Assembly: GCF_003970695.1 (NCBI RefSeq)
Contig: NZ_CP034570.1
Span: forward strand, 3,100,001 to 3,164,000
From: Maribacter sp. MJ134
GTDB taxonomy: Bacteria > Bacteroidota > Bacteroidia > Flavobacteriales > Flavobacteriaceae
DNA: 64,000 nt
Reading direction: 5' to 3'
Part shown: piece by piece, positions 1 to 21,704 of the stretch
How the letters are laid out: each line of letters starts with the position of its first letter
Numbering within the stretch: the stretch's first letter is position 1
Made by a program: the position numbers and the translations under genes
The notes under the pieces: model-generated
What the model was told of the DNA's origin: nothing
The model's database searches: none
Seen by the model: only the letters and a program-made list of their open reading frames with translations

Positions 1-88
1 TTGTTTCGCAACCATCAACTAAACATTTCCATGGTTTCTTTCTAACGTTAATTCTTATTTGGGCTATAATGTTTTGTGGCTTGGTCAT
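1..88 (-). CDS. Cassette 6 gene, 5' part only (HNH-like N-terminus?)
   Basis: An open frame begins with ATG at 88 and runs off the left window edge without a stop, giving 29 codons that start MTKPQNIIAQIRINVRKK and continue into PWKCLVDGC. It lies immediately downstream of a unit-start motif (GTTG-TGCAC-AAT, read on the minus strand at 101-90), so by position it is the gene of a sixth cassette. The KPWKCLVDGC stretch looks like the start of zinc-ribbon or HNH-like proteins in which a Cys pair precedes a conserved Ser-His, but too little is present to assign it. The start is chosen because it is the first ATG after the recombination site, as in the neighbouring units. Confidence 0.5.
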   Translation of the reverse strand, partial: MTKPQNIIAQIRINVRKKPWKCLVDGCET

Positions 89-89
89 A

Positions 90-232
90 ATTGTGCACAA
101 CGGTCTCGTATAACAGTCAGTTACGGGTTAATATGCGTTAATTTTCGGTTTAGCACAGACTTTAGCAATTCCTAGTGGATTCGGACGTAGTCGAATCCGC
201 CGTAATTGCGGTTATACACTGTTAGCTGTAGT
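90..232 (-). other. attC-like recombination site D (between cassettes 5 and 6)
   Basis: A 143-bp imperfect palindrome. The outer boxes are GTTAGCTGTAGT at 221-232 (end of cassette 5) and the reverse complement of GTTGTGCACAAT at 90-101 (start of cassette 6). Inside them GTATAAC...CAGTTACGG on the left pairs with CCGTAATTGCGGTTATAC on the right. A perfect 7-bp hairpin sits inside (GGATTCG at 177-183 with CGAATCC at 192-198). The box of cassette 5 is repeated in inverted orientation at that cassette's other end (1043-1054). The inner sequence is unrelated to sites A-C but the layout is the same. Confidence 0.7.
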
Positions 233-235
233 TTT

Positions 236-1030
236 TTATCCTTCATCTGGCACGTGTCTAGCTGGATTAATTTTGATTTTTATGCTTTCAGGAAACTCCT
301 TTAAATTAAATTTTTTATTTATAATTTCTTTTACCCTTTCGACTTGCCAATCACTTTCGACAATTACTCCGAGTAGATGGTCAATTGAAAAATCGACTCT
401 TAAGTCTTTTATCAATTCGTTAAAATCTGCTTTTTTGTCCATATCCTCACCAACAAGAAAGTAAGGTACTTTTTCCTGTTGAATTATTTTTCGCCACTCT
501 CTTTCCATACCATATGGATATTTTTCTGCCATCAAAGTATTATTACGAACTAAAATTCCATCATAATTTTTTGAGTGAGCGAAAATCTTTATTTGCTGTT
601 TAGTTAGCAAACTTTTGTGGTCAATCTTTACACCATTCAAGGCATTTTCTAATTCATCTTTAGATGTTGTGGTAATGTCTTTGAAATTACCAATTATATC
701 ATTGGTCAAATCTGATGTTCGTTCGAGGTATAAAACAGGATTGAAATCATTTTCTTCCCCCCATTTTTTGCTCAAAATTATACCTAGAGTACCGTACGAT
801 TTTTGATAAGAAATTGCAAAATCAGAGTCAACATTCGAAGTGCTAATCATAGGAAAACAAGCTCCTTTGTTTTCTTTGTTATTGGTTATATTCTCTTTAC
901 AATAACTTGGTTTCAGTCCTTCAGTTAAAATCAATTCTAAGATTTCCCAATTTTGGGTCATATGTATAAGTGGGAAACTATCTCTTTCCCCAGGCTCAAA
1001 AATTCTATCAGTATCTACCCAATAATCCAT
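236..1030 (-). CDS. Cassette 5: AbiGi-like phage-resistance protein
   Basis: 264 residues from the ATG at 1030; an upstream TTG at 1042 would add four residues. The pattern resembles the AbiGi family of abortive-infection proteins: a short opening with FPLIHMTQNWEILELIL, then FPMISTSNV, then a tract like YGTLGIILSKKWGE followed by NPVLYL, and an EREWR motif further on. The family link is from memory of this pattern and is moderate. AbiGi is described as the antitoxin-like partner in an Abi system, but no AbiGii partner is adjacent. The gene stands alone between two attC-like sites, and its stop lies 4 bp beyond its own end box. It has no promoter of its own that I can see, so it may be read from the leader near the integrase. 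Confidence 0.55.
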   Translation of the reverse strand: MDYWVDTDRIFEPGERDSFPLIHMTQNWEILELILTEGLKPSYCKENITNNKENKGACFPMISTSNVDSDFAISYQKSYGTLGIILSKKWGEENDFNPVLYLERTSDLTNDIIGNFKDITTTSKDELENALNGVKIDHKSLLTKQQIKIFAHSKNYDGILVRNNTLMAEKYPYGMEREWRKIIQQEKVPYFLVGEDMDKKADFNELIKDLRVDFSIDHLLGVIVESDWQVERVKEIINKKFNLKEFPESIKIKINPARHVPDEG

Positions 1031-1042
1031 ATGGTTTTTCAA

Positions 1043-1248
1043 ATTACAGCTAACGGTTGGGCTAAGCGTAGTGCGGAGACAAGTAAACTTTTCGTTTCCG
1101 TCTTAGCACGAAGCTAAAGCTTATTGTTTAGTTTTATTTTTTCTTGTCCAAAGCTAAATCCATAAGATTTAGCGACTTCATAAATATGCACAGACCTTTA
1201 GATTTAGACCTAAAGTCCGCATTACGTTTAGGCTGTGTTAGAGCAAGT
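1043..1248 (-). other. attC-like recombination site A (between cassettes 4 and 5)
   Basis: A 206-bp imperfect palindrome. The outer boxes are GTTAGAGCAAGT at 1237-1248 (end of cassette 4) and the complement of GTTAGCTGTAAT at 1043-1054 (start of cassette 5). The inner arms are 1059-1076 (GGCTAAGCGTAGTGCGGA) and 1215-1233 (GTCCGCATTACGTTTAGGC), which pair on the plus strand with G-T wobbles at two positions. A perfect hairpin GCTAAATC/GATTTAGC lies at 1153-1173. The site is nearly the same sequence as site C (5124-5330) inside the boxes, while the boxes differ. Confidence 0.75.
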
Positions 1249-1252
1249 TTTC

Positions 1253-1684
1253 TTACCAGTTTCTTGTGGCGATTAACTCTTCTACATCAGCGTCAAATCC
1301 ATAAGCTTCAGAAATATATGCAAAATTAGCTCCTAAACATTCTCTTGCTCCAGTTTCAATTTCGCTATTATTTTCAAAAAATTCGTCTTCCAAATCATTT
1401 AATTTATCAGTAGCACTTTGTGTTATTTTATAGAGTTCTTCTAAATTTTCAGGCGTTTCCGTTTCGATAGTCCCACACATATTTACTAGTATATTTTTAC
1501 ACTTGTCCACGAGAAATTTTGGAAAATAGGAGTCTCTATACATACAATCTAAAAATCCATAATCTTTTAGTTTTACATTAGTCAATTCGGTTTGTTTAAT
1601 CATTCCATTATTCGAATTTTGTGATTTTCCAAAGTTGCAGGCGGTAATCAATAGAATTAATAATATGTAAAGTGTTTTTTTCAT
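1253..1684 (-). CDS. Cassette 4: small secreted lipoprotein
   Basis: 143 residues. A type II signal peptide is plain: MKKTLYILLILLITAC with the lipidated Cys at position 16. The mature part is acidic and carries about four further Cys residues (in LDCMYRD, DKCKNI, NMCGT, RECLG), which could form disulfides in the periplasm. I do not recognise the family; small cysteine-containing exported proteins of this size include immunity proteins against secreted toxins, but nothing here proves that. It is the only gene between sites A and E, and its stop is 5 bp outside its end box, as expected for a compact cassette. Confidence 0.6.
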   Translation of the reverse strand: MKKTLYILLILLITACNFGKSQNSNNGMIKQTELTNVKLKDYGFLDCMYRDSYFPKFLVDKCKNILVNMCGTIETETPENLEELYKITQSATDKLNDLEDEFFENNSEIETGARECLGANFAYISEAYGFDADVEELIATRNW

Positions 1685-1692
1685 TTTTTTAA

Positions 1693-1829
1693 ATTTGCTC
1701 TAACGTGTTTGTGTATGATTTCGTTGCGTGTTTCAGCAACTAATTTAGCAAATACAAACCGAATAGAAAATCCGCGAGGATTTTCTTAAGTAGGCGAGTA
1801 CTAGCAATGAATTATACACGGTGTGCCTG
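1693..1829 (-). other. attC-like recombination site E, main part (split by IS)
   Basis: The start box of cassette 4 (complement of GTTAGAGCAAAT) is at 1693-1704. Next comes a palindrome whose left arm GTGTATGATTTCGTTGC pairs with GCAATGAATTATACAC near 1807-1820. A perfect hairpin GAAAATCC/GGATTTTC lies at 1766-1785. The other end box of this site (GTTGTACTTAGT, cassette 3) is found only beyond the insertion sequence, at 3575-3586. Joined without the element, the site would be about 160 bp. Confidence 0.65.
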
Positions 1830-3564
1830 TTGCACAAGTTAGGAAAAAAACGGGTCGTAATCATTGCCGATCGTGAGATGGATCGTAACTTTAGGTATGC
1901 AGGGAAAGAAGGACTACCAGGAAAAGCTGTTCGCGAGCTTCCAGCTCAGCGAACGTATACCAAAGGACAATTTTTATAGACGCTTAAGAGGTACAATCGA
2001 TCTGGATTTCCTCTATCGGTTGACCAAGGGATATTATGGGGAGAGCGGCCAGAAGAGCATCGACCCGGTGGTTTTCTTCAAGCTGTGTTTGGTGGGCTAT
2101 CTGGAGAACATCATCAGCGACCGCAAGCTTATCGACCATTGTTCTATGCGCTTGGACATCCTATTTTTCATTGGCTATGACATCGATGAGGAGCTGCCCT
2201 GGCACAGCACCATAAGCAGGACCCGTCAACTGTTCCCGGAGTCCGTTTTCGAGGAGGCGTTCACCAATATTCTGTCCATGTGCGTGGAGAGGGGTATGGT
2301 GAGCGGCCATACGCAGGCGATCGATTCGGCCCCTGTAAAGGCGAACGCAAGTATGGATACCTTGGAGCTGAAGGTGCCCGAAGAGGATTTGGAGGAGCAT
2401 CTGAAAAAGATACGTGCGATCAGTTCAATGGACAGAGAAGGACCCCACCGTAAATCCAAGAACGATAAATCGGATGAAGGTCAACGGGGTATTACTGCGA
2501 GCAAGAGGGAACTTGACGCGATAAAGGGCCGTAACAAGAGATGGGCAAAAGACCAAGATCAACGTCCCGGTGCCGGGAACAAGGGGTCGAAATACACGAG
2601 CAACAATGCCTTCCTCTCGCTTCGCTCGTCGGAGGCAAGACAGTCCCACGGATCCCGATGCCAGGATAAGCGTAAAGCCCGGTAAGGCGCGGAAGCTGAA
2701 CTACCTCTCCCAATTGAGCGTGGACACGGCGAACCACGTGATCACCGATATCAGGGCGTACCATGCGGACGGAAAGGACAATCAACAGCTACAGGATATC
2801 GTACACCGCTTACAAAGAAGGTTATGGCAACAGGGTATGGTTTTTGAAAACTGCGTAGCGGACACGGGCTACAGTTCGGGCGAGAACTATGCCTTTCTGG
2901 AACAGCAGGGGCTAAAGAGTTTCATTCCACCGCACGGCACCTACAAGGGCGGCCCCGATGGGTTCGAGTACATCGGGGAACATGACCATTATCTGTGTCC
3001 ACAAGGAAAGGTGATCCCTTTCACCAAGATGTTCAAGGACTACCGTACGGGAACGAAAAAGAAGGAATACAGGGCAAGGAAGCATGTCTGTACCGATTGT
3101 CCTATACGTAGCACGTGTCTGGGAAAGAGTGCACAGGAGAAGAAGTTCTCGGTGACCTATTATCGGGAAGAATACGAACGTAATAACGAAAGGGTCAACA
3201 GTCCACAGGGGAGGTACATGAAGGGCAAACGCCAGAGTACCGTGGAACCGGTCTTCGGTACCCTGACCCAGTTCATGGGCATGCGCAAGATTAACACCAT
3301 CGGCCTTGCACAGGCCAACAAGGTGATGCACCTCTCGGCCATCGCCTACAATTTGAAGAAGTACCTGAAATTCGAACGAAAACTGGCAGAAAGCGGGGCG
3401 GGACGGCTTGCTTTGAAGGCATTGGCCAAAAGTGTGCTCCAAAACCTGTTTCAAGCTTCCATGACGCATCGGAATTTGGACTTCCGTTTCTGAGCCGACA
3501 TGAAAAAAGCCCCTTAAAAAGGCTTAAACGGAGCTGTTTCATTCAGAATTTAAGCTTGTGCAAC
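1830..3564 (+). mobile_element. IS1182-like insertion sequence
   Basis: A single transposase gene (broken, see next entry) lies between perfect 10-bp terminal inverted repeats: GTTGCACAAG at 1830-1839 and CTTGTGCAAC at 3555-3564. The repeats may extend a little outward, because a few bases on each side are not explained by the recombination site. I cannot define a target duplication. The element is clearly GC-richer than the cassettes around it. A hairpin near 3503-3529 (AAGCC...GGCTT with A/T-rich flanks) probably ends the transposase transcript. It sits inside attC-like site E. Confidence 0.8.
1864..3493 (+). pseudogene. IS1182-family transposase, frameshifted
   Basis: Two overlapping open frames make up one DDE transposase. 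The 5' frame (1864-2685, TTG start, 273 residues) has the N-terminal DUF772-type region (DPVVFFKLCLVGYLENI, DHCSMRLDILFFIGYD) and AIDSAPVKANASMD. The 3' frame (entered by about 2640 and ending at 3493) has the catalytic half, with ENCVADTGYSSGENY, a Cys-rich CTDCPIRSTC segment and RQSTVEPVFGTLTQFMGMRK. The change of frame falls at 2608-2641. There a GC-rich, partly palindromic stretch (TGCCT...AGGCA at 2606-2637) appears to be inserted between the codons for KYTSNN and SPTDPDARIS. The gene is probably inactive, although ribosomal frameshifting cannot be excluded from sequence alone. Confidence 0.8.
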
Positions 3565-3574
3565 GGTTACCTTT

Positions 3575-3586
3575 GTTGTACTTAGT
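3575..3586 (-). other. End box of cassette 3 (orphaned half of site E)
   Basis: GTTGTACTTAGT on the plus strand matches, with the usual single A-to-G change, the start box of the same cassette (GTTGTACTTAAT, minus strand, 4472-4461). The rest of site E lies at 1693-1829 beyond the IS. The stop codon of the cassette 3 gene shares base 3586 with the box. Confidence 0.7.
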
Positions 3587-4455
3587 TATTTTCTACGCAA
3601 CAGTTTATCTATTATCTCAATATCTATTTCAACAATTTGCTCTAATCCATAAGCATTAAATAGTTGAAAAGCATATTCTGTAGGACTTACGGATTTGGGG
3701 AAATCAGGAATCGTATTAAGACCTGAAGTTGGGTCTAAAATGTGCTTAAAACCTAATTGAAAAAGGTTGCTTTTAAACATTACAACCTCTTCCGATTGCT
3801 CCAGTTCAGAATCTTCCATTAAAAGATTGTAGAAAGGCTTCAATCGTAAATTATCTGAGGTCTCGTTATTTCTTATTACCACCCATCTCAATATAAGAAG
3901 TTGACTAGTATTTAGTCCATTCAGTTCTGATAGGTAATGGGGAAGATTGATTTCCGAAACGTCGTTAAATTCAACTTTATGTAAAAGGTTAGTTACGCAT
4001 TGAAATCTAATTAGGTCTATGTTTGAAGTATTGATTATTTGAGTACAACTGATAAATGTGTTATAGGATAGTTTACTTAAGATGTTTAAACGAAAAAGTT
4101 TTCCAATAAGCGATGCAATTCTTGAATCTTCGGCTTTGTCAATCACGAAGAGCAACTTATCTCCAACACTTGATTCGTATTTCTCCGAACTGTTTATCTT
4201 TTTAATTTGTTTTTGTCTTTCCTCTAATGGAATGGTTTGCAGTTCGGTTAGAAAGTACAGAAGTTTTTTAGTTAATAACCTGTCTTTAATAGTAAAATAC
4301 CCTTTTGATAGTCCAACAATGGAGCCTATTAGGGGTATGTCCCTTAAAAGTCCATCATCAAGAGCAAGGTCCACGACTGATTCGGCTAAATCGATGGATA
4401 CGCTTTGAATTTCCTCCGTTTTTACGACGGTTTCTATTTTTTCTTGAAGTTTCAT
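3586..4455 (-). CDS. Cassette 3: uncharacterised 289-aa protein
   Basis: 289 residues and no signal peptide. A hydrophobic stretch at about residues 38-55 (LLRDIPLIGSIVGLSKGYFTI) is followed by a basic IKDRLLTKKLLYFL segment. The remainder is predicted mainly helical, and the C-terminal part (PTEYAFQLFNAYGLEQIVEID) resembles an amphipathic helical tail. Proteins with this DIPLIGSI/IKDR opening are familiar as hypothetical proteins of Bacteroidota, but I know no function. The amphipathic region could touch a membrane. The gene fills its cassette almost exactly: ATG 6 bp after the start box, stop at the end box. Confidence 0.55.
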   Translation of the reverse strand: MKLQEKIETVVKTEEIQSVSIDLAESVVDLALDDGLLRDIPLIGSIVGLSKGYFTIKDRLLTKKLLYFLTELQTIPLEERQKQIKKINSSEKYESSVGDKLLFVIDKAEDSRIASLIGKLFRLNILSKLSYNTFISCTQIINTSNIDLIRFQCVTNLLHKVEFNDVSEINLPHYLSELNGLNTSQLLILRWVVIRNNETSDNLRLKPFYNLLMEDSELEQSEEVVMFKSNLFQLGFKHILDPTSGLNTIPDFPKSVSPTEYAFQLFNAYGLEQIVEIDIEIIDKLLRRK

Positions 4456-4460
4456 TTATA

Positions 4461-4664
4461 ATTAAGTACAACGGTTGAGCTATGAACAGTACGGGGGCAA
4501 ACTAGCGTTTGCTTTCTGTCACGCACATAGCAAAATCTTTTTGTTTTTTTTTCTTTTCCTTGTTTAAAGCAAAATCAAAAAGATTTTGCGGACTTCATAA
4601 AATTACACAAACCTTTGCATAAAGCCCTAAGTCCGTATTGTTTATAGGTTGTGTTGTAGTTAGT
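4461..4664 (-). other. attC-like recombination site B (between cassettes 2 and 3)
   Basis: A 204-bp imperfect palindrome. The outer boxes are GTTGTAGTTAGT at 4653-4664 (end of cassette 2) and the complement of GTTGTACTTAAT at 4461-4472 (start of cassette 3). The inner arms are GCTATGAACAGTACGG on the left and CCGTATTGTTTATAGG on the right (about 4632-4648). The hairpin GCAAAATC/GATTTTGC is at 4569-4589. It has the same architecture and length as sites A and C but different bases in both stems, with pairing kept (compensatory changes). The 3' end of the cassette 2 reading frame runs into it. Confidence 0.75.
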
Positions 4665-5117
4665 GTTTTCTGCGTTTTCTAGATTTAAGTGTTTTTTTAC
4701 AGGTAAAAACACATTATTTAAATGGCTGCGTGATTCCAAATGTTTTACTATATCTGTCTTTGTATTTATAGAATTTATCACAGGCAGCAATAAATCGTTC
4801 ACAAAATACTCAGTATTTCGATTACGAACGGTCTTGTCCATTGAGTTTGTTAAATCCAATGTATCGAAAATCAACTTTCGTTCTTTCCGTTTTTTGGAAC
4901 CCAATCGATTCCAAATATGCATGCTAACCTCCTTATAATCCAAGTCCTTGAAATTATAACCGTAATTCAAATAGTAGCGATTGCTATAATCAGATTTTTG
5001 TAAGTAAATTACTTTTTCCAATTCCTCCGTTTCCGCGGTCCATTTGTTTCCTTTTTTCTTAAAACCATGAGGTTTTAAAAGTCGGTCTAACTCTTCTTTG
5101 AATTCCTGATTGGTCAT
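4575..5117 (-). CDS. Cassette 2: DUF4304-like protein, reading into its attC-like site
   Basis: 180 residues. The opening FKEELDRLLKPHGFKKKGNKWTAE, followed by the YYLNYGYNFKDLD segment, fits the DUF4304 family (function unknown; common in bacterial accessory regions and linked by context to toxin-immunity loci). The last 29 residues (from about TNYNTTYKQYG) are encoded inside recombination site B, and the TGA lies in that site's inner hairpin. The natural domain probably ends before this tail. Either the original stop has been lost or the site regularly supplies the tail. ATG is 6 bp after the start box. Confidence 0.65.
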   Translation of the reverse strand: MTNQEFKEELDRLLKPHGFKKKGNKWTAETEELEKVIYLQKSDYSNRYYLNYGYNFKDLDYKEVSMHIWNRLGSKKRKERKLIFDTLDLTNSMDKTVRNRNTEYFVNDLLLPVINSINTKTDIVKHLESRSHLNNVFLPVKKHLNLENAENTNYNTTYKQYGLRALCKGLCNFMKSAKSF

Positions 5118-5123
5118 TTTTAC

Positions 5124-5330
5124 ATTAACTACAACGGTTGGGCTAAGCGTAGTGCGGAGGCAAGGAAACTTTTCGTTTCCGTCTGTGCACGAAGCTAAAG
5201 CTTATTGTTTAGTTTTATTTTTTCTTATCCAAAGCTAAATCCATAAGATTTAGCGACATTATAAATATACACAGACCTTGGTGTTTTATCTCTAAGGTCC
5301 GCATTACGTTTAGGCTTTGTTGGCGTTAGT
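5124..5330 (-). other. attC-like recombination site C (between cassettes 1 and 2)
   Basis: A 207-bp imperfect palindrome. The boxes are GTTGGCGTTAGT at 5319-5330 (end of cassette 1) and the complement of GTTGTAGTTAAT at 5124-5135 (start of cassette 2). Inside, GGCTAAGCGTAGTGCGGA pairs with GTCCGCATTACGTTTAGGC, and GCTAAATC/GATTTAGC form a hairpin at 5234-5254. It is a close copy of site A apart from the boxes and a few internal bases. Confidence 0.75.
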
Positions 5331-5409
5331 TTTTTCCGTTCGAGTAAGCTGATTCTCTTGAATTTCGCTTTGCTTTTCCATTCGAATGAGAAGTCCATCT
5401 GAGCAACGG

Positions 5410-5937
5410 TTACGCTCGATTCCTATCCAAAAGCGTTTTGTTTCTTTGGTTCTGAGATGCTTTTACTTCCTTTGCAAGCTTTCTTAGTGTCCGATAATTT
5501 TCTGCATTATCTGGTAAAAAACCAAGAAATTTTTTCTCAATATCCATTACTATATAATTTTGAGTTTTGTTTACCGTGAGTATTGAATCCATAAATTTTC
5601 GCTCGATTTGAACTTTCAAAGTATTCTCTGTTTTCTCAAGAATTTTTAATTTCGTAAATGGATTTTTAATCAATTCATTTATTTCATTCCAGTTTTCGTT
5701 ACTGTTCTCGACGATTATAGAATGTTTTGATTCCAAAAAGTCCACGTACTCAATTTCGTCATACTTTTCATAATCAAATAGTTGCCAAAATACGATACCG
5801 AACGAGCCTACAAATCCTGCAATTACCGGAATAATCCATTGATTCAGGTCAAATCCGTTTGTAAGAGTCCAAAATCCAAACCCGATTGGGAATAGTAAAA
5901 TGGTTTTTAAAATAAATTTTGTTGTCTTGTTTTCCAT
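5410..5937 (-). CDS. Cassette 1: small membrane protein
   Basis: 175 residues from the ATG at 5937, which lies 10 bp inside the unit-start box. A longer frame extends to 6012 but would cross the box, so the shorter start is preferred. Two transmembrane helices follow a short basic N-terminus (about residues 7-26 FILKTILLFPIGFGFWTL and 33-54 WIIPVIAGFVGSFGIVFW). A soluble C-terminal domain of about 115 residues follows, with a beta-rich pattern (LKILEKTENTLKVQIERKF) like proteins that sense or bind at the membrane face. No family recognised. As the cassette nearest the recombinase it would be the newest insertion if this array behaves like an integron. Confidence 0.6.
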   Translation of the reverse strand: MENKTTKFILKTILLFPIGFGFWTLTNGFDLNQWIIPVIAGFVGSFGIVFWQLFDYEKYDEIEYVDFLESKHSIIVENSNENWNEINELIKNPFTKLKILEKTENTLKVQIERKFMDSILTVNKTQNYIVMDIEKKFLGFLPDNAENYRTLRKLAKEVKASQNQRNKTLLDRNRA

Positions 5938-5946
5938 TTTTTCAAA

Positions 5947-6109
5947 ATTAACGTCAACTCGTTTATAAGTCTGTATATCTAATAATTTCCCAAAAGGTAC
6001 AAAATATATCAAATAGCCCTTGAGTAATATACAAATACAAGATAAACGTACGGTTATTTTATATAAGTTTATAAGTATATTTAATGCACGATTTATATAA
6101 AATGAATGT
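5947..6109. promoter_or_regulatory. attI-like leader between cassette 1 and the integrase
   Basis: The array ends at the cassette 1 start box (complement of GTTGACGTTAAT, 5947-5958). The 150 bp from there to the integrase ATG is very AT-rich and carries no palindrome of the attC-like type. GTTTATAAGT occurs twice as a direct repeat, at 5961-5970 (2 bp from the box) and 6067-6076. Reading leftward there is a weak promoter-like TATATTTTG near 6005. In an integron this position holds attI and the cassette promoter; the assignment here is by position and these repeats only. Confidence 0.4.
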
Positions 6110-7177
6110 ATGAGGTTATCCGACTATACCTTACAACCCGATGAGCATAAGGGCAAAGATGTTATCCTAGTACAATTTCCGTTCAACACAGCGCTAAAAC
6201 TCGCTCTAAAAAAGCGGTTTCCCTCCGCTAGATGGAGCGCTAGTAAAAAATCATGGTACCTACCCGATCTACCAGCGGTAAGAAGGGAATTAGAATTAGA
6301 GGAAAAGAACACCTTAGAAAGTAAAGCGTTAAGGCTACACGAGGTAAACCGGGATGCTTACCGTGCACTAGATAAGCAGCTAACACTTAAAGACTATAGT
6401 AAGAGCACCATTACCATATATTTAGCGGAGTTTTACCATTTGCTCAAACTTTTAGACGATTATCCGGTCCAGGACTTGAACCCTAAGCGGCTTAAGGATT
6501 ATTTTTTATACTGTATCCGTGTAGAAAAAATGGGAGAACGCAAGCTTAACGGTAAAATCAACGCTGTAAAGTTCTATTTTGAACAGGTGTTGCATAGACC
6601 AAAGATGTTCTTTGATATACCCCGCCCTAAAAAGGCCGCTAGTTTACCAAAAATGCTGAGTAAGACCGAGGTAAAAAAACTTTTCAATGTCACCCAAAAT
6701 CTAAAACATAAAATAGCCCTTCAACTATGTTACGGTATGGGACTTCGGGTTTCTGAAGTGGTCAATTTAAAAATTGAGCATATAGACAGTAAAAGAATGG
6801 TGGTACATGTAGTTGGGGCAAAAGGAAAAAAAGACAGGTACCTGCCCTTGCCAAAATCTATTCTGCCCAAGTTGCGGGAGTACTATTTAACCTATAAACC
6901 TAAAACATACCTTCTAGAAGGTCAATATGGTGGGCCGTATGGAAAATCTAGCTTGCAGCAGATGTTTAGGCTCGCCATGAAAAAAGCGAACATTCGTAAA
7001 AAAATCGGTATTCATGGCCTACGCCACAGTTATGCAACACATTTATTGGAGGCCGGCGCGGATATGCGTTTTATTCAAGAGCTGTTAGGGCATAATAGCA
7101 TAAAGACCACACAGGTATATACCAAGGTATCTCCGCGTAGTCTATCTAAAGTACAAAGTCCGCTAGATACCATGTAA
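6110..7177 (+). CDS. Tyrosine recombinase next to the cassette array
   Basis: 355 residues. An N-terminal module of about 60 residues has the W-S-x-S-K-K-x-W-Y-x-P motif (W42, W49, P52) seen in many Bacteroidota recombinases. A SAM-like core-binding domain follows (about 85-165), then the catalytic domain. The visible catalytic set is R213 (GLRVSE), Lys in AKGKKDR (238-241), H302/R305 (HGLRH), H328 (LLGHNS) and Y337 (VYTKV). The C-terminus ends VQSPLDTM, close to the SPLD ending of IntI enzymes and their relatives. I do not see the extra helix region that IntI proteins carry before the second Arg box. The gene is transcribed away from six same-strand cassettes, which is the integron arrangement, so I infer it acts on the attC-like sites. 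A plain XerD-type phage integrase is the alternative. Confidence 0.8.
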   Translation: MRLSDYTLQPDEHKGKDVILVQFPFNTALKLALKKRFPSARWSASKKSWYLPDLPAVRRELELEEKNTLESKALRLHEVNRDAYRALDKQLTLKDYSKSTITIYLAEFYHLLKLLDDYPVQDLNPKRLKDYFLYCIRVEKMGERKLNGKINAVKFYFEQVLHRPKMFFDIPRPKKAASLPKMLSKTEVKKLFNVTQNLKHKIALQLCYGMGLRVSEVVNLKIEHIDSKRMVVHVVGAKGKKDRYLPLPKSILPKLREYYLTYKPKTYLLEGQYGGPYGKSSLQQMFRLAMKKANIRKKIGIHGLRHSYATHLLEAGADMRFIQELLGHNSIKTTQVYTKVSPRSLSKVQSPLDTM

Positions 7178-7192
7178 CATTAAAGGTGTTGT

Positions 7193-7807
7193 TTAGACCA
7201 ATCGTTTGGCAATGCCGTTGACCGTTAAAAAATCTAGTTTTAAGATAAGGTTTATGGGCTTTTCCGCTTTCTGCAGATTAGAAAAATAGAGATAGCCTTG
7301 CTTTTTAGCATGTAGTTGCGCTAGTGTTTGCTTGGCACTCTTACCCGGGTGCTTTTTTATTACTTGGTCCAATGACTGCCTTGTAATGCCTTTGGATGCT
7401 AAGAAAGCAAGTAACTTTTTTCGGTTCACCAAAGTAATTTTGCAAGAGGTAAAGGTATTGGGGCTATCCTCGTAAATTGCGGTGACCAGCGCATAGAAAT
7501 CGGTTTTCTTGGCAGTATCAAAAAGCCAACCCTCCCTTACCAGTTCTTTTTTTTGATATTCGATTTCAAAGGCAAAAGTGGGTAGGTCATCGTTAATATA
7601 ATCTAGCTGTGCCTTCTCATCAATGCTATACTTTTCGCCAGTGGTCTTATGGGTAAAAACAACATCAATGCCCTTTAATTGCTGGTCGTAAGCGGAAATA
7701 CGCTCAAAGCGGTAGTGCTTTAGGTGTAAGGTATACATGCGGTCTAGCAGCGGAAACAACTGCCGTTCCTTTTTTAAATCTGCCTTAAAAGTGCTTTTCA
7801 ACGCCAT
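7193..7807 (-). CDS. Candidate type II restriction endonuclease
   Basis: 204 residues, 39 bp downstream of a cytosine-5 DNA methyltransferase on the same strand. A PD-(D/E)xK-like arrangement is visible: D48 (KGIDVVFTH), then S-I-D63-E-K65, with another acidic strand FAFEIEY at 79-84. The order 'D, about 15 residues, D-x-K, Q' fits restriction nucleases that act on double-stranded DNA. I know no named enzyme with this sequence, and the recognition site cannot be read from it. The assignment depends mainly on the neighbour. It is convergent with the recombinase gene, only 15 bp away, so the pair may be part of the same accessory block. Confidence 0.6.
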   Translation of the reverse strand: MALKSTFKADLKKERQLFPLLDRMYTLHLKHYRFERISAYDQQLKGIDVVFTHKTTGEKYSIDEKAQLDYINDDLPTFAFEIEYQKKELVREGWLFDTAKKTDFYALVTAIYEDSPNTFTSCKITLVNRKKLLAFLASKGITRQSLDQVIKKHPGKSAKQTLAQLHAKKQGYLYFSNLQKAEKPINLILKLDFLTVNGIAKRLV

Positions 7808-7846
7808 GTTTTGAGTTTCCTGCCAAAGACTGTTATCGTATGAAGA

Positions 7847-9073
7847 CTATTGGACGATTTTTTCGTAGAGCGATTTTCCAAGTCGTTCCACGACCCCTAC
7901 CACAAGGGCATTGCCCATAAAGAAAGCCCGCTTTGCATCACTAATTCCTTCCAAACAGGTGTGATGGTCCGGAAACATGTTCGAGCGCTCCAGTTCCAAA
8001 GGGGTTAGTCTTCGCAATCCCTTTGACGTTTGCACCACATGTTTAAACCGTGAAGGGCTTTTACCCCCCTCTCCCGTTATAATGGTCCGTGATGGCCTGT
8101 CTAACGCGTCCGGAAACTGCATACTCCCTTCGCTGTAATTATAGGAGAATCCGTTTTTTGCGGTACGCACTTCTTTTTTGGACCCTTTTAAATAGGCCCA
8201 TTTTTCAATGTCTTCTGGAGCAATATAAAATTCTGTTGGCACTTGGTCACATGTTAAGATATCGGCCAGTACGGTATGTTCCCCATCAAATTCCGGAAAG
8301 GTTTTACCGGTAAAGACCTGTCCGTTGATGCAGATACCCGAATTTTGGAAAGGGGATAGTTTTTCACCGGCATTGAACTGCTCTGAAAGCTGTACCATGT
8401 CCGGCTCTAGCGTAAAGGTTTTTTGGTCTTCTATAACTGCACTAACAGGAAAAGCGCTGGCAACGGTACCCTCCGAGCTTAGCCATGCTTTGGGGTCCGT
8501 CTCTTGGAGGCGGTCGTAAACCGCACCGGTCTTGTAGTAACCCAGCAGAAAGACACGTCTTCTACGTTGGGGCATACCATAGTCCGCCGCATTGATTACG
8601 CGCCACTCTACTGCATAACCCAAGCTATCCAAACTCCGCAGCATTACGGCAAAATCCCTGCCCCGCTGGCTAGAGGGCGACTTTAGCAGGCGGTCTACAT
8701 TTTCCAGAAAAAGGTATTTAGGCATATGTTTTTTCTCGGACAGGATACGGTGTATGCTCCACCACAAGACCCCTTTTTTCCCCAAAAGCCCTTTGGAGTT
8801 CTGCAAGGTAGTGGCCACGGAATAGTCTTGGCAGGGAAAACCGCCTACCAGAACATCCGCATCCGGAATTTTGTCCGTGGGAACTTCTTCGATAGACGTA
8901 TTACTGTGGTTTTTGGGCCCGAACCTAGCTTCATAGACCATGGACGCATGCTGTGTTTTGGTGCTGGGTTCCCACTGGTTGCTCCATACCACCTCGTAAC
9001 CGCCGGTTTGTTCCAGACCCAACCGAAACCCACCAACACCCGCAAAAAGCTCTATGACCTTTAATTTTTTCAT
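7847..9073 (-). CDS. DNA (cytosine-5-)-methyltransferase
   Basis: 408 residues. It transfers a methyl group from S-adenosylmethionine to C5 of cytosine in DNA. The family motifs appear in order: ELFAGVGGFRLGLE (motif I, SAM binding), GGFPCQDYSVA with catalytic C81 (motif IV), FLENVDRLL (motif VI), GMPQRRRRVFLLG (motif VIII) and GNALVVGVVERLG (motif X) near the C-terminus. The variable target-recognition region lies roughly at 230-350. Length is normal for a type II enzyme. With the nuclease candidate downstream it forms a likely restriction-modification operon; the target sequence is unknown. About 130 bp separate it from the divergent NlpC/P60 gene, enough for promoters in both directions. 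Confidence 0.93.
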   Translation of the reverse strand: MKKLKVIELFAGVGGFRLGLEQTGGYEVVWSNQWEPSTKTQHASMVYEARFGPKNHSNTSIEEVPTDKIPDADVLVGGFPCQDYSVATTLQNSKGLLGKKGVLWWSIHRILSEKKHMPKYLFLENVDRLLKSPSSQRGRDFAVMLRSLDSLGYAVEWRVINAADYGMPQRRRRVFLLGYYKTGAVYDRLQETDPKAWLSSEGTVASAFPVSAVIEDQKTFTLEPDMVQLSEQFNAGEKLSPFQNSGICINGQVFTGKTFPEFDGEHTVLADILTCDQVPTEFYIAPEDIEKWAYLKGSKKEVRTAKNGFSYNYSEGSMQFPDALDRPSRTIITGEGGKSPSRFKHVVQTSKGLRRLTPLELERSNMFPDHHTCLEGISDAKRAFFMGNALVVGVVERLGKSLYEKIVQ

Positions 9074-21331: not shown

Positions 21332-21704
21332 GATTTTGGACGTTAAAATTATTCAAAAGAAGCTCCATTCGCGGCGCTATTTGATCAAAAGAGGGCATTT
21401 CTTTCCCAAGGTATAAAAATAGAAACGCAAAGTTCCCCTGAGTATTGTTAAAAACGATGGCTTTATTGAGCCTATAGGCCTCCCGCATCAGTCTTTTGAT
21501 ACGATTCCGTTTTACCGCACTTTTAAAACTTCTTTTAGGAACGGCAACGCCTACTTTTATGGCCACCTCTTGTTCGTCAACACTTAAATAGATGAGCTTT
21601 AAGGGATAGGCCTTTAACGTTTTTCCTTCCTCGAACAATTGCGTAATACGCTCCTTGTTTTTTAGCTTTTCTTTTCTACCGAACGAGTGGGCCTGTTTGA
21701 TCAT
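21312..21704 (-). CDS. rnpA: Ribonuclease P protein component
   Basis: 130 residues, basic. It binds the RNase P RNA and helps mature tRNA 5' ends. The family's RNR motif is clear: FKSAVKRNRIKRLMREAYRL. The start HSFGRKEKLKNKERI and the VGVAVPKRSFK segment match as well. It directly follows the M1 peptidase gene (stop one base upstream of this ATG region) and overlaps the S41 gene, so it lies in a tight run of minus-strand genes. The usual rpmH neighbour is not here. Confidence 0.95.
   Translation of the reverse strand: MIKQAHSFGRKEKLKNKERITQLFEEGKTLKAYPLKLIYLSVDEQEVAIKVGVAVPKRSFKSAVKRNRIKRLMREAYRLNKAIVFNNTQGNFAFLFLYLGKEMPSFDQIAPRMELLLNNFNVQNHEKSTT

Follow-up and report, generated by a model that had tools for sequence, protein, structure and literature searches.

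The window analysed here is a 64,000-nucleotide stretch of the genome of Maribacter sp. MJ134 (NZ_CP034570.1, a single contig of 4,016,247 bases) that begins at base 3,100,001, and its left end carries a tyrosine recombinase gene beside a row of one-gene units resembling the cassette array of an integron. The array is on the minus strand and the recombinase is oriented away from it (Table 1; coordinates are window positions unless marked as genome positions). Five cassettes lie complete within the window, together with the initial ~101 bases of a sixth; the gene of this last one starts inside the window and exits across its left edge. These form the recombinase end of an array of ~17 kb, ~11 kb of which lies past the left edge, to about genome 3,089,100. 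The first-pass annotation, made from the letters of the window alone, had described six minus-strand one-gene units beside a recombinase on the opposite strand, each followed by a palindrome. The strand arrangement stands, but only five units are complete and the sixth is cut; likewise, intact hairpins follow units 1, 2, 4 and 5, but an insertion sequence interrupts that of unit 3. Its palindrome types are also recovered, in that R and L boxes are common to all and the inner part differs, and the end boxes in the window, when reverse-complemented, agree with its end motif, GTTR-N5-AGT.

Table 1. Features at the recombinase end of the array (window positions).
Feature	Position	Strand	Remarks
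Insert-less integron-type tyrosine recombinase, 355 aa	6110..7177	+	catalytic residues present; ~80-aa N-terminal extension; C-terminus SPLD
attI-like region between recombinase start and cassette 1	5959..6109	-	second copy elsewhere in genome; TANNTT box
Cassette 1	5136..5958	-	gene 5410-5937, no Pfam match; attC-like hairpin about 5122-5333
Cassette 2	4473..5135	-	DUF4304 gene, open reading frame 4575-5117; attC-like hairpin about 4459-4666
Cassette 3	3572..4472	-	gene 3586-4455, no Pfam match; hairpin split, right half at about 1691-1819
Insertion sequence within cassette 3 hairpin	1820..3571	.	plus-strand transposase in two overlapping frames
Cassette 4	1055..1704	-	DUF5713 gene 1253-1684; attC-like hairpin about 1041-1250
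Cassette 5	102..1054	-	AbiGi-family gene 236-1042; attC-like hairpin about 88-234
Cassette 6, start only	1..101	-	323-aa open reading frame extending past the window; no Pfam match

A cassette starts with GTTRN6AT and ends with ACN6YAAC, and the R and N6 letters at the two ends of one cassette are complementary, as predicted for a circular cassette carrying an attC-like site. In the window this complementarity appears as the inverted-repeat pairs I10, I16, I19 and I25, which correspond to units 5, 3, 4 and 2. Unit 1 has one extra mismatch (start GTTGACG, end GTTGGCG) and fails our strict pair test, which demands ten exact letters and ends 150–5,000 nt apart. The strict test finds nine pairs in 44 kb at the window array and none, on either strand, in the remaining 56.8 kb of the window. 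A relaxed test of the 14.1 kb left of the recombinase gives ten pairs against 0.8 expected, two of the ten being terminal repeats of insertion sequences. A version requiring 11 exact complementary letters was discarded: it detected no array, because position 11 is a conserved mismatch, and it was allowing this mismatch that revealed the arrays. An Rfam scan of positions 1–9000 returned no family above the gathering score.

We examined the sequence around homologues of the recombinase in other genomes, some of the loci being picked by hand from match lists (mostly top-scoring ones or those on long contigs) and not at random. Homologues with at least 48% identity gave a set of 54 loci, from which eight loci repeating other contigs and three homologues below 48% had been left out. 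Upstream of the recombinase (319 kb), 99 strict pairs lie on the opposite strand, against none on the other strand and none in Markov controls; the 379 kb downstream hold six, all in one locus (L114). At least one upstream strict pair is present in 28 of the 54 loci, and 23 of the other 26 have less than 3.8 kb of sequence on the array side. More than 5 kb of that side is available at 21 close-homologue loci, and 18 of these contain one or more strict pairs within it; in the remaining three the array is downstream (L114), no strict pair is seen (L115) or the homologue is just a 65-aa match (L124). Of 47 loci (L074–L120), 33 have a contig end no more than 10 kb away on the array side and 8 have one on the other side, a pattern to be expected when repeat-rich arrays are assembled.

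The same signature occurs in a second architecture. We call the window type, with the array upstream and on the opposite strand, group A; in group B (37–47% identity) the array lies downstream of the recombinase and on its strand. A first set of seven group B loci held ten strict pairs, five of the seven having any. A set of 20 loci holds 169 pairs downstream on the recombinase's strand against none on the opposite one, with at least one in 18 of the 20 and a single stray upstream (L159); L161, L162 and L163 in this set are L070, L068 and L069 with more downstream sequence. Seven homologues of 38–47% identity (L065–L071) had been tried as array-free controls and were ruled out, five of them having strict pairs on the other side. 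The window genome itself also has a group B array, at about 44 kb, with ten strict cassettes. Units beside homologues in other genomes, which the first-pass annotation had proposed to look for, are found in both groups, on one strand in each. Across 283 cassettes, the longest open reading frame runs forward in 239 and in reverse in 17, the other 27 having none of 60 aa, and the N6 block takes 119 distinct forms, GCAATA and TAAAAC being the commonest.

The array is positioned with respect to the recombinase. Measured from the recombinase start, 18 of 28 group A loci have their first strict cassette at a distance of 147–220 nt (151 nt in the window); measured from the recombinase stop, 17 of 23 group B loci have theirs 47–113 nt further on. 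In the remaining loci of both groups the first cassette to be detected is more distant; distances were listed only below 300 nt for group A and 130 nt for group B. This near-fixed distance, together with copies of the intervening region that have different first cassettes and with a shared cassette standing first in the 44-kb array (both described below), points to an attI-like site. Of 19 such regions in group A, 12, including that of the window, have a TANNTT box at −41/−40 relative to the first cassette, against a background of 0.018 per position. It resembles the −7 promoter element of Bacteroidota, and is suggestive of a candidate promoter reading into the array.

Whole cassettes recur within the window genome. 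One cassette of the array, at genome 3093178–3094050, shares an identical 873-nt stretch with the cassette that stands first in the 44-kb array (genome 43108–43980), 47 nt after the recombinase stop there; the identity begins at GTT and ends just beyond the next GTT, and the cassettes that follow differ. Window cassette 4 is identical from GTT to GTT (1052–1704, 653 nt) to genome 3924067–3924719, where it abuts a second copy of the window attI region. The two copies of this region (window 5930–6119 and genome ~3924690–3924880) are 92% identical over 190 nt and exact in the last 56 nt before GTT. Two attI copies lie next to different cassettes, so that one attI sequence has two first cassettes joined to it at the same base. 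A scan of 20 kb at the site of the second copy of cassette 4 gave no recombinase match. The cassette cluster there (genome 3918591–3924719, L263), with the attI-region copy at its head and no recombinase match, is like a cluster of attC sites lacking integron integrases (CALIN), with an attI-like site added.

Copies are also found within arrays and between genera. Exact in-array repeats bounded at GTT, or within a few letters of it, occur in L147, L152, L157 and L160; those of L148 and L150 and the 449/13013 pair of L160 have no clean boundary, identity overrunning the cassette or stopping inside it. Three cassette pairs between different genera are 87–92% identical. L160 further contains six 184-nt cassettes, 95–100% identical and with no open reading frame of 60 aa, that are scattered in one array.

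Orthologous loci in different species, with flanks that are related, were compared in nine pairs. Downstream, 64–93% of the flank aligns in six pairs and 27–38% in three, and the array sides have 0–414 nt in common, mostly in site-sized patches; the longest single patch measures 251 nt (L084/L090) and stops, at both loci, where a cassette begins. The array stretch available for comparison was often short (126 to 2,010 nt in eight pairs and 9,841 in one), and the right-hand flank of the window has no nucleotide match to the flanks of the relatives compared. As far as these alignments reach, orthologous loci appear to retain their flanks but not their cassettes, and array content differs between them; constant arrays, among strains of one species, were what the first-pass annotation had named as telling against it. 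Together with the copies, they indicate that crossover would occur at GTT and that cassettes are gained, lost and moved.

Palindromes that are repeated and intergenic, as these are, one 163-nt pair being 91% identical, could also be transposon-like repeats, such as miniature inverted-repeat transposable elements, lying between genes by chance. Such repeats would not be expected to have outer letters that vary from cassette to cassette and match the other end of their own unit, as the 119 N6 blocks do, and the repetition of whole gene units with GTT boundaries already contradicts this explanation, which we give practically no weight.

The sites at the cassette 3′ ends have the components of attC hairpins: R boxes, L boxes and spacers that stay unpaired. 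Among 165 sites bounded by two detected cassettes, the inner length is 110–129 nt in 125 and 170–189 nt in 33, and the L boxes pair at 7.93 of 9 positions, compared with 6.34 for shuffled partners. In the R box, GTT and R are conserved and are followed by the variable N6, which departs from the GTTRRRY consensus of canonical integrons. We calculated mutual information across 156 distinct sites, with those under 100 nt or identical removed and relatedness of the sites not controlled for. The ten strongest pairs are all on the −2/−3 diagonals, as are 14 of the 28 pairs listed; positions 5–18 after YAAC covary with positions 8–20 before GTTR, each with at least two standard pair types. At a single register, standard pairs account for 38–73%, a range that we attribute to the presence of two spacer lengths.

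The two strands of the site differ in predicted stability. Of at least 336 pairs identified with no requirement at position 11, 296 have A there at the start and, in the reverse complement, G at the end; this is an A–C mismatch on the top strand and a G–T wobble on the bottom strand, making the bottom-strand hairpin the more stable. When 158 circle-junction sites (identical ones removed) were folded with DNA parameters, the bottom strand had the greater stability in 156 sites and the top strand in two, with mean values of −30.6 and −26.3, respectively, against −14.3 and −13.4 in the Markov control. Coding segments, folded as a further control, showed the reverse bias (83 bottom and 172 top of 261).

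These features bear on whether the site works as a folded single strand. The enzyme might instead act on double-stranded sites, as Xer does, the palindrome providing recombinase-binding arms. In favour of this, the IntI insert, with the helix that docks extra-helical bases (its role is given in passages of PMC7790495), is absent here (see below); the attI-like sites, moreover, carry an inverted repeat beside the first cassette that is strong in group B (exact arms of mean length 9.1 against 4.5 in the Markov control, n = 17; group A, 5.6 against 4.2, n = 18). However, a double-strand mechanism requires neither covariation of the L stem over about 14 positions nor the bottom-strand bias of nearly every site, and we consider it a rather unlikely account.

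The recombinase has a catalytic domain of the Pfam family PF00589 (129.3 bits). It stays below the cut-offs of the more specific models: TIGR02249 matches in two stretches with 180.9 bits (cut-off 265), NF040815 (site-specific tyrosine recombinase/integron integrase) with 194.3 (cut-off 220; the 44-kb paralogue reaches 237.7), XerC with 168.4 of 335.15 and XerD with 163.6 of 329.6. In an alignment with 19 IntI proteins, three runs of columns (16, 15 and 11) are filled in more than 80% of IntI and in less than 20% of groups A and B, and they are also empty in the group C rows printed as examples. The enzyme thus lacks the usual IntI insertion, the I2 region, as the first-pass annotation had said. 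Before the catalytic arginine, insert-less proteins have about 65–95 more residues than IntI or Xer, with group medians of 210–230 against 135 (IntI) and 146 (Xer), lengths being counted from the first Met after a stop. An AlphaFold model (mean predicted local distance difference test score 82.7, predicted template modelling score 0.67; weak at residues 171–179 and 329–345) has the integron integrase 2A3V as its three best fold matches in the PDB (best E 1.4e-14, template modelling score about 0.53–0.64).

Phylogeny places these proteins with IntI. In a tree of 111 proteins, IntI and the insert-less proteins stand apart from Xer and two other recombinases (support 99/97), and each of the two forms a group of its own (IntI, 100/100; insert-less proteins, 94/90); L135, L143, L223 and L018 (short or no open reading frame) were left out of this tree and of the insert alignment. 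A 62-protein tree that includes IntI1, E. coli XerC/XerD and plasmid and phage rows also separates IntI and insert-less proteins, together with those plasmid and phage rows, from Xer (100/100); a position of IntI amid the insert-less proteins is weakly supported in it (87/85). A single insert-less group, when forced, is not rejected (approximately unbiased test, p-AU 0.279). The recombinase therefore looks like a sister or paraphyletic branch relative to IntI. The comparison with IntI and Xer that the first-pass annotation had called for groups window-type enzymes with IntI and leaves Xer separate, which lends no support to its suggestion that the system may have evolved separately, if this is taken as an independent origin. 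One genome (G000) has its own XerD above the cut-off in addition to a homologue on the Xer branch (L008).

Homologues at E 1e-60 occur in 84 of 299 genomes of the family and 26 of 36 of the genus, the window genome included, and at E 1e-90 in 3 of 395 in a phylum sample. Canonical IntI above the TIGR02249 cut-off is present in 1 of 149 in the class and in 46 of 148 in the GTDB phylum sample, 45 of these outside the class. The first-pass view that IntI is rare in Bacteroidota is thus correct for the class but not for the wide GTDB phylum.

An array is not a feature of every insert-less homologue. Eight of 20 more class loci, taken from the match list, have at least one strict pair, with 15 pairs downstream on the same strand, two upstream on the opposite strand (L193) and none in the other two positions. 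The 12 without a pair comprise seven with less than 1.7 kb of contig downstream and five with 7.6–18 kb, and the latter show no clear excess in the relaxed test (for example L178, four pairs against 2.8 expected, and L179, three against 1.6). Plasmid and phage homologues are distant; four plasmid regions gave 1, 0, 1 and 0 pairs in a strict scan, and 14 pattern matches were found in viral contigs, none of them encoding a relative. Homologues without arrays were what the first-pass annotation had held would tell against it: most close ones carry an array (18 of 21), but more distant, array-free ones do exist.

Insert-less homologues without an array, and the recombinase-free cluster at genome 3918591–3924719, might be read as signs that an unlinked recombinase, such as the host XerC/XerD, moves the units and that the neighbouring gene is a passenger. 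In that case there would be no reason for the near-fixed first-cassette distance in 18 of 28 group A and 17 of 23 group B loci or for pairs on one strand, and the sites are long hairpins, not short dif-like ones; we judge this very improbable. Such an arrangement occurs in Acinetobacter, where host XerC/XerD act on the short dif-like sites that flank the mobile gene units known as pdif modules. The window units are likewise mobile and bounded by tyrosine-recombinase sites, and differ in their long hairpin sites and neighbouring recombinase. With XerC/XerD the window enzyme has in common its superfamily, its catalytic residues and the lack of an IntI insert; unlike these enzymes of chromosome dimer resolution, it belongs to a separate tree branch and has linked cassette arrays.

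The closest parallel is with canonical integrons, including reverse-oriented ones: a recombinase beside attI, one-directional one-gene cassettes with 3′ hairpins, crossover at GTT, complementarity between cassette start and end, a favoured bottom strand and IntI as the nearest solved fold. The window system differs in lacking the IntI insert, in its N-terminal extension and sub-threshold TIGR02249 score, in an R box of GTTRN6AT with the conserved position-11 mismatch in place of GTTRRRY, and in sites that mostly measure 110–129 or 170–189 nt inside the R boxes. We ran the same tests on 14 canonical IntI loci, two of which carry three or more core pairs on the same side (L196, three; L198, four). 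In these pairs the cores are GTTRRRY and start and end are complementary, one end in L196 being common to two of its three pairs; the strict signature is absent from both loci and gives two stray pairs in all 14 (L199 and L206). True IntI arrays thus show start–end complementarity without the strict signature, which implies that the arrays described here follow integron logic with an R box of their own.

Insert-less relatives of IntI have been noticed before at the level of the enzyme. In the passages of the papers cited here that concern the insert, Smyshlyaev et al. (2021; PMC8138268) describe an 'Integron-like' subgroup of simple tyrosine recombinases in which the insertion is 'not fully conserved', call it essential for integron function and tie no cassette arrays to insert-less members. 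Our proteins resemble that subgroup in being insert-less IntI relatives and differ in the arrays linked to them. According to the corresponding passages elsewhere, IntegronFinder requires a match to the IntI insert (PMC9668308), a 2008 survey retained only proteins having it (PMC2426708) and a 2022 survey lists one complete Bacteroidetes integron, in Salinibacter ruber M1, besides those of Chlorobi and Ignavibacteriae (PMC9024848). Among the matches listed in a search of the open-licence PMC literature, with preprints outside its scope, none describes an insert-less integron in Bacteroidota, judging by titles and the openings of abstracts, and cassette arrays of insert-less relatives were not mentioned there.

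Taken together, the locus is very probably an integron of unrecognised type, on an insert-less branch of the integron system, in which an IntI-related recombinase without the I2-region insert captures, moves and loses one-gene cassettes. The first-pass annotation had proposed an integron-like array with an insert-less tyrosine recombinase, and the cassette signature, the copies within the genome, array turnover, covariation in the hairpins, the missing insert and the phylogeny agree on this point. Each cassette bears an attC-like hairpin consisting of an R″ box (ACN6YAAC), a short spacer, an L stem of ~14 bp, a variable inner part, a second spacer 2–3 nt longer and an R′ box (GTTRN6AT). Recombination would take place at the GTT of R′, with the attI-like site or between two attC-like sites, leaving R′ at the cassette start and R″ at its end. 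The folded bottom strand presumably recombines, as in canonical integrons, the neighbouring recombinase would carry out cassette movement, and cassettes would be read from a promoter within the attI region.

Several points weigh against this. By fold, archaeal XerA comes close behind the IntI structure 2A3V (E 1.5e-13 against 1.4e-14), and by sequence an archaeal Xer is slightly ahead of IntI as best match. Distant insert-less homologues lack arrays (the five class loci with 7.6–18 kb downstream, and plasmid copies). In the array, the R″ and R′ boxes of a site belong to two cassettes and are not bound to be complementary, so that the folded site would be weaker; folded in this form, 139 of 158 sites have the bottom strand as the more stable one and 18 the top strand. 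In principle, the sites could also be substrates of a host Xer or of some other recombinase. Finally, the insert is reported to be needed for cassette capture by IntI (Messier and Roy 2001, as cited in a passage of PMC7790495), so that either a substitute exists or the mechanism differs.

The arrays carry varied cargo and are themselves a target of mobile elements. Genes of the window array encode AbiGi, DUF5713, DUF4304 and a DarT/DarG pair, and in its outer part five of seven scanned proteins have no Pfam match; among 76 cassette proteins, PADLOC recognised six families with one member each. The DarT/DarG toxin–antitoxin cassette, at genome about 3094236–3097235 (L021), contains an inserted transposase gene. 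A Mutator-family transposase (Transposase_mut, E 1.5e-110) lies inside the cassette of one of the 76 scanned proteins, showing that mobile elements also ride in or invade arrays. The insertion sequence in the cassette 3 hairpin, which we take to be IS1182-like, has further copies with ends near genome 3099118, 3092419, 21343–21539, 456270–456465, 3918591, 3923550, 3977343 and 158096. Eight of the nine copies with a recognisable end sit just after an R″ box (the exception is at 158096), and given this placement the element seems to target attC-like sites. IS1111-attC elements target such sites in canonical integrons.

Beside the recombinase, 7193–9073 encodes a 204-aa protein without a family match and a cytosine-5 DNA methyltransferase, possibly a restriction–modification pair. 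Elsewhere in the genome (4–15 kb and 3.98–4.01 Mb), other tyrosine recombinases occur in repeated adjacent pairs with frames of ~315 and 333 aa (L004–L007, L009–L016, L018 and L019, several with equal scores), which are probably a transposon.

Surveys that define integrons by the IntI insert would miss insert-less arrays, at least as complete integrons. With homologues in the 84 family and 26 genus genomes counted above, a large pool of cassettes may have been overlooked, one that includes defence and toxin–antitoxin genes (AbiGi, DarT/DarG). In passages on the origin of the system, the relation of I2 to attC has been called a chicken-and-egg paradox (Nat Commun 2016, PMC4792948), and intermediates are said to be lacking, with IntI defined by its insert (eLife 2020, PMC7790495). 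An enzyme with hairpin sites but no I2 makes this question testable. A more tentative proposal, plausible without being the likelier case, is that I2-less integrons existed and persist widely in Bacteroidia, that hairpin sites came first or can do without I2, that IntI may derive from an array-bearing insert-less lineage by gain of the insert and that the N-terminal domain may take the place of I2. If so, these enzymes would be a missing intermediate in the evolution of integron integrases.

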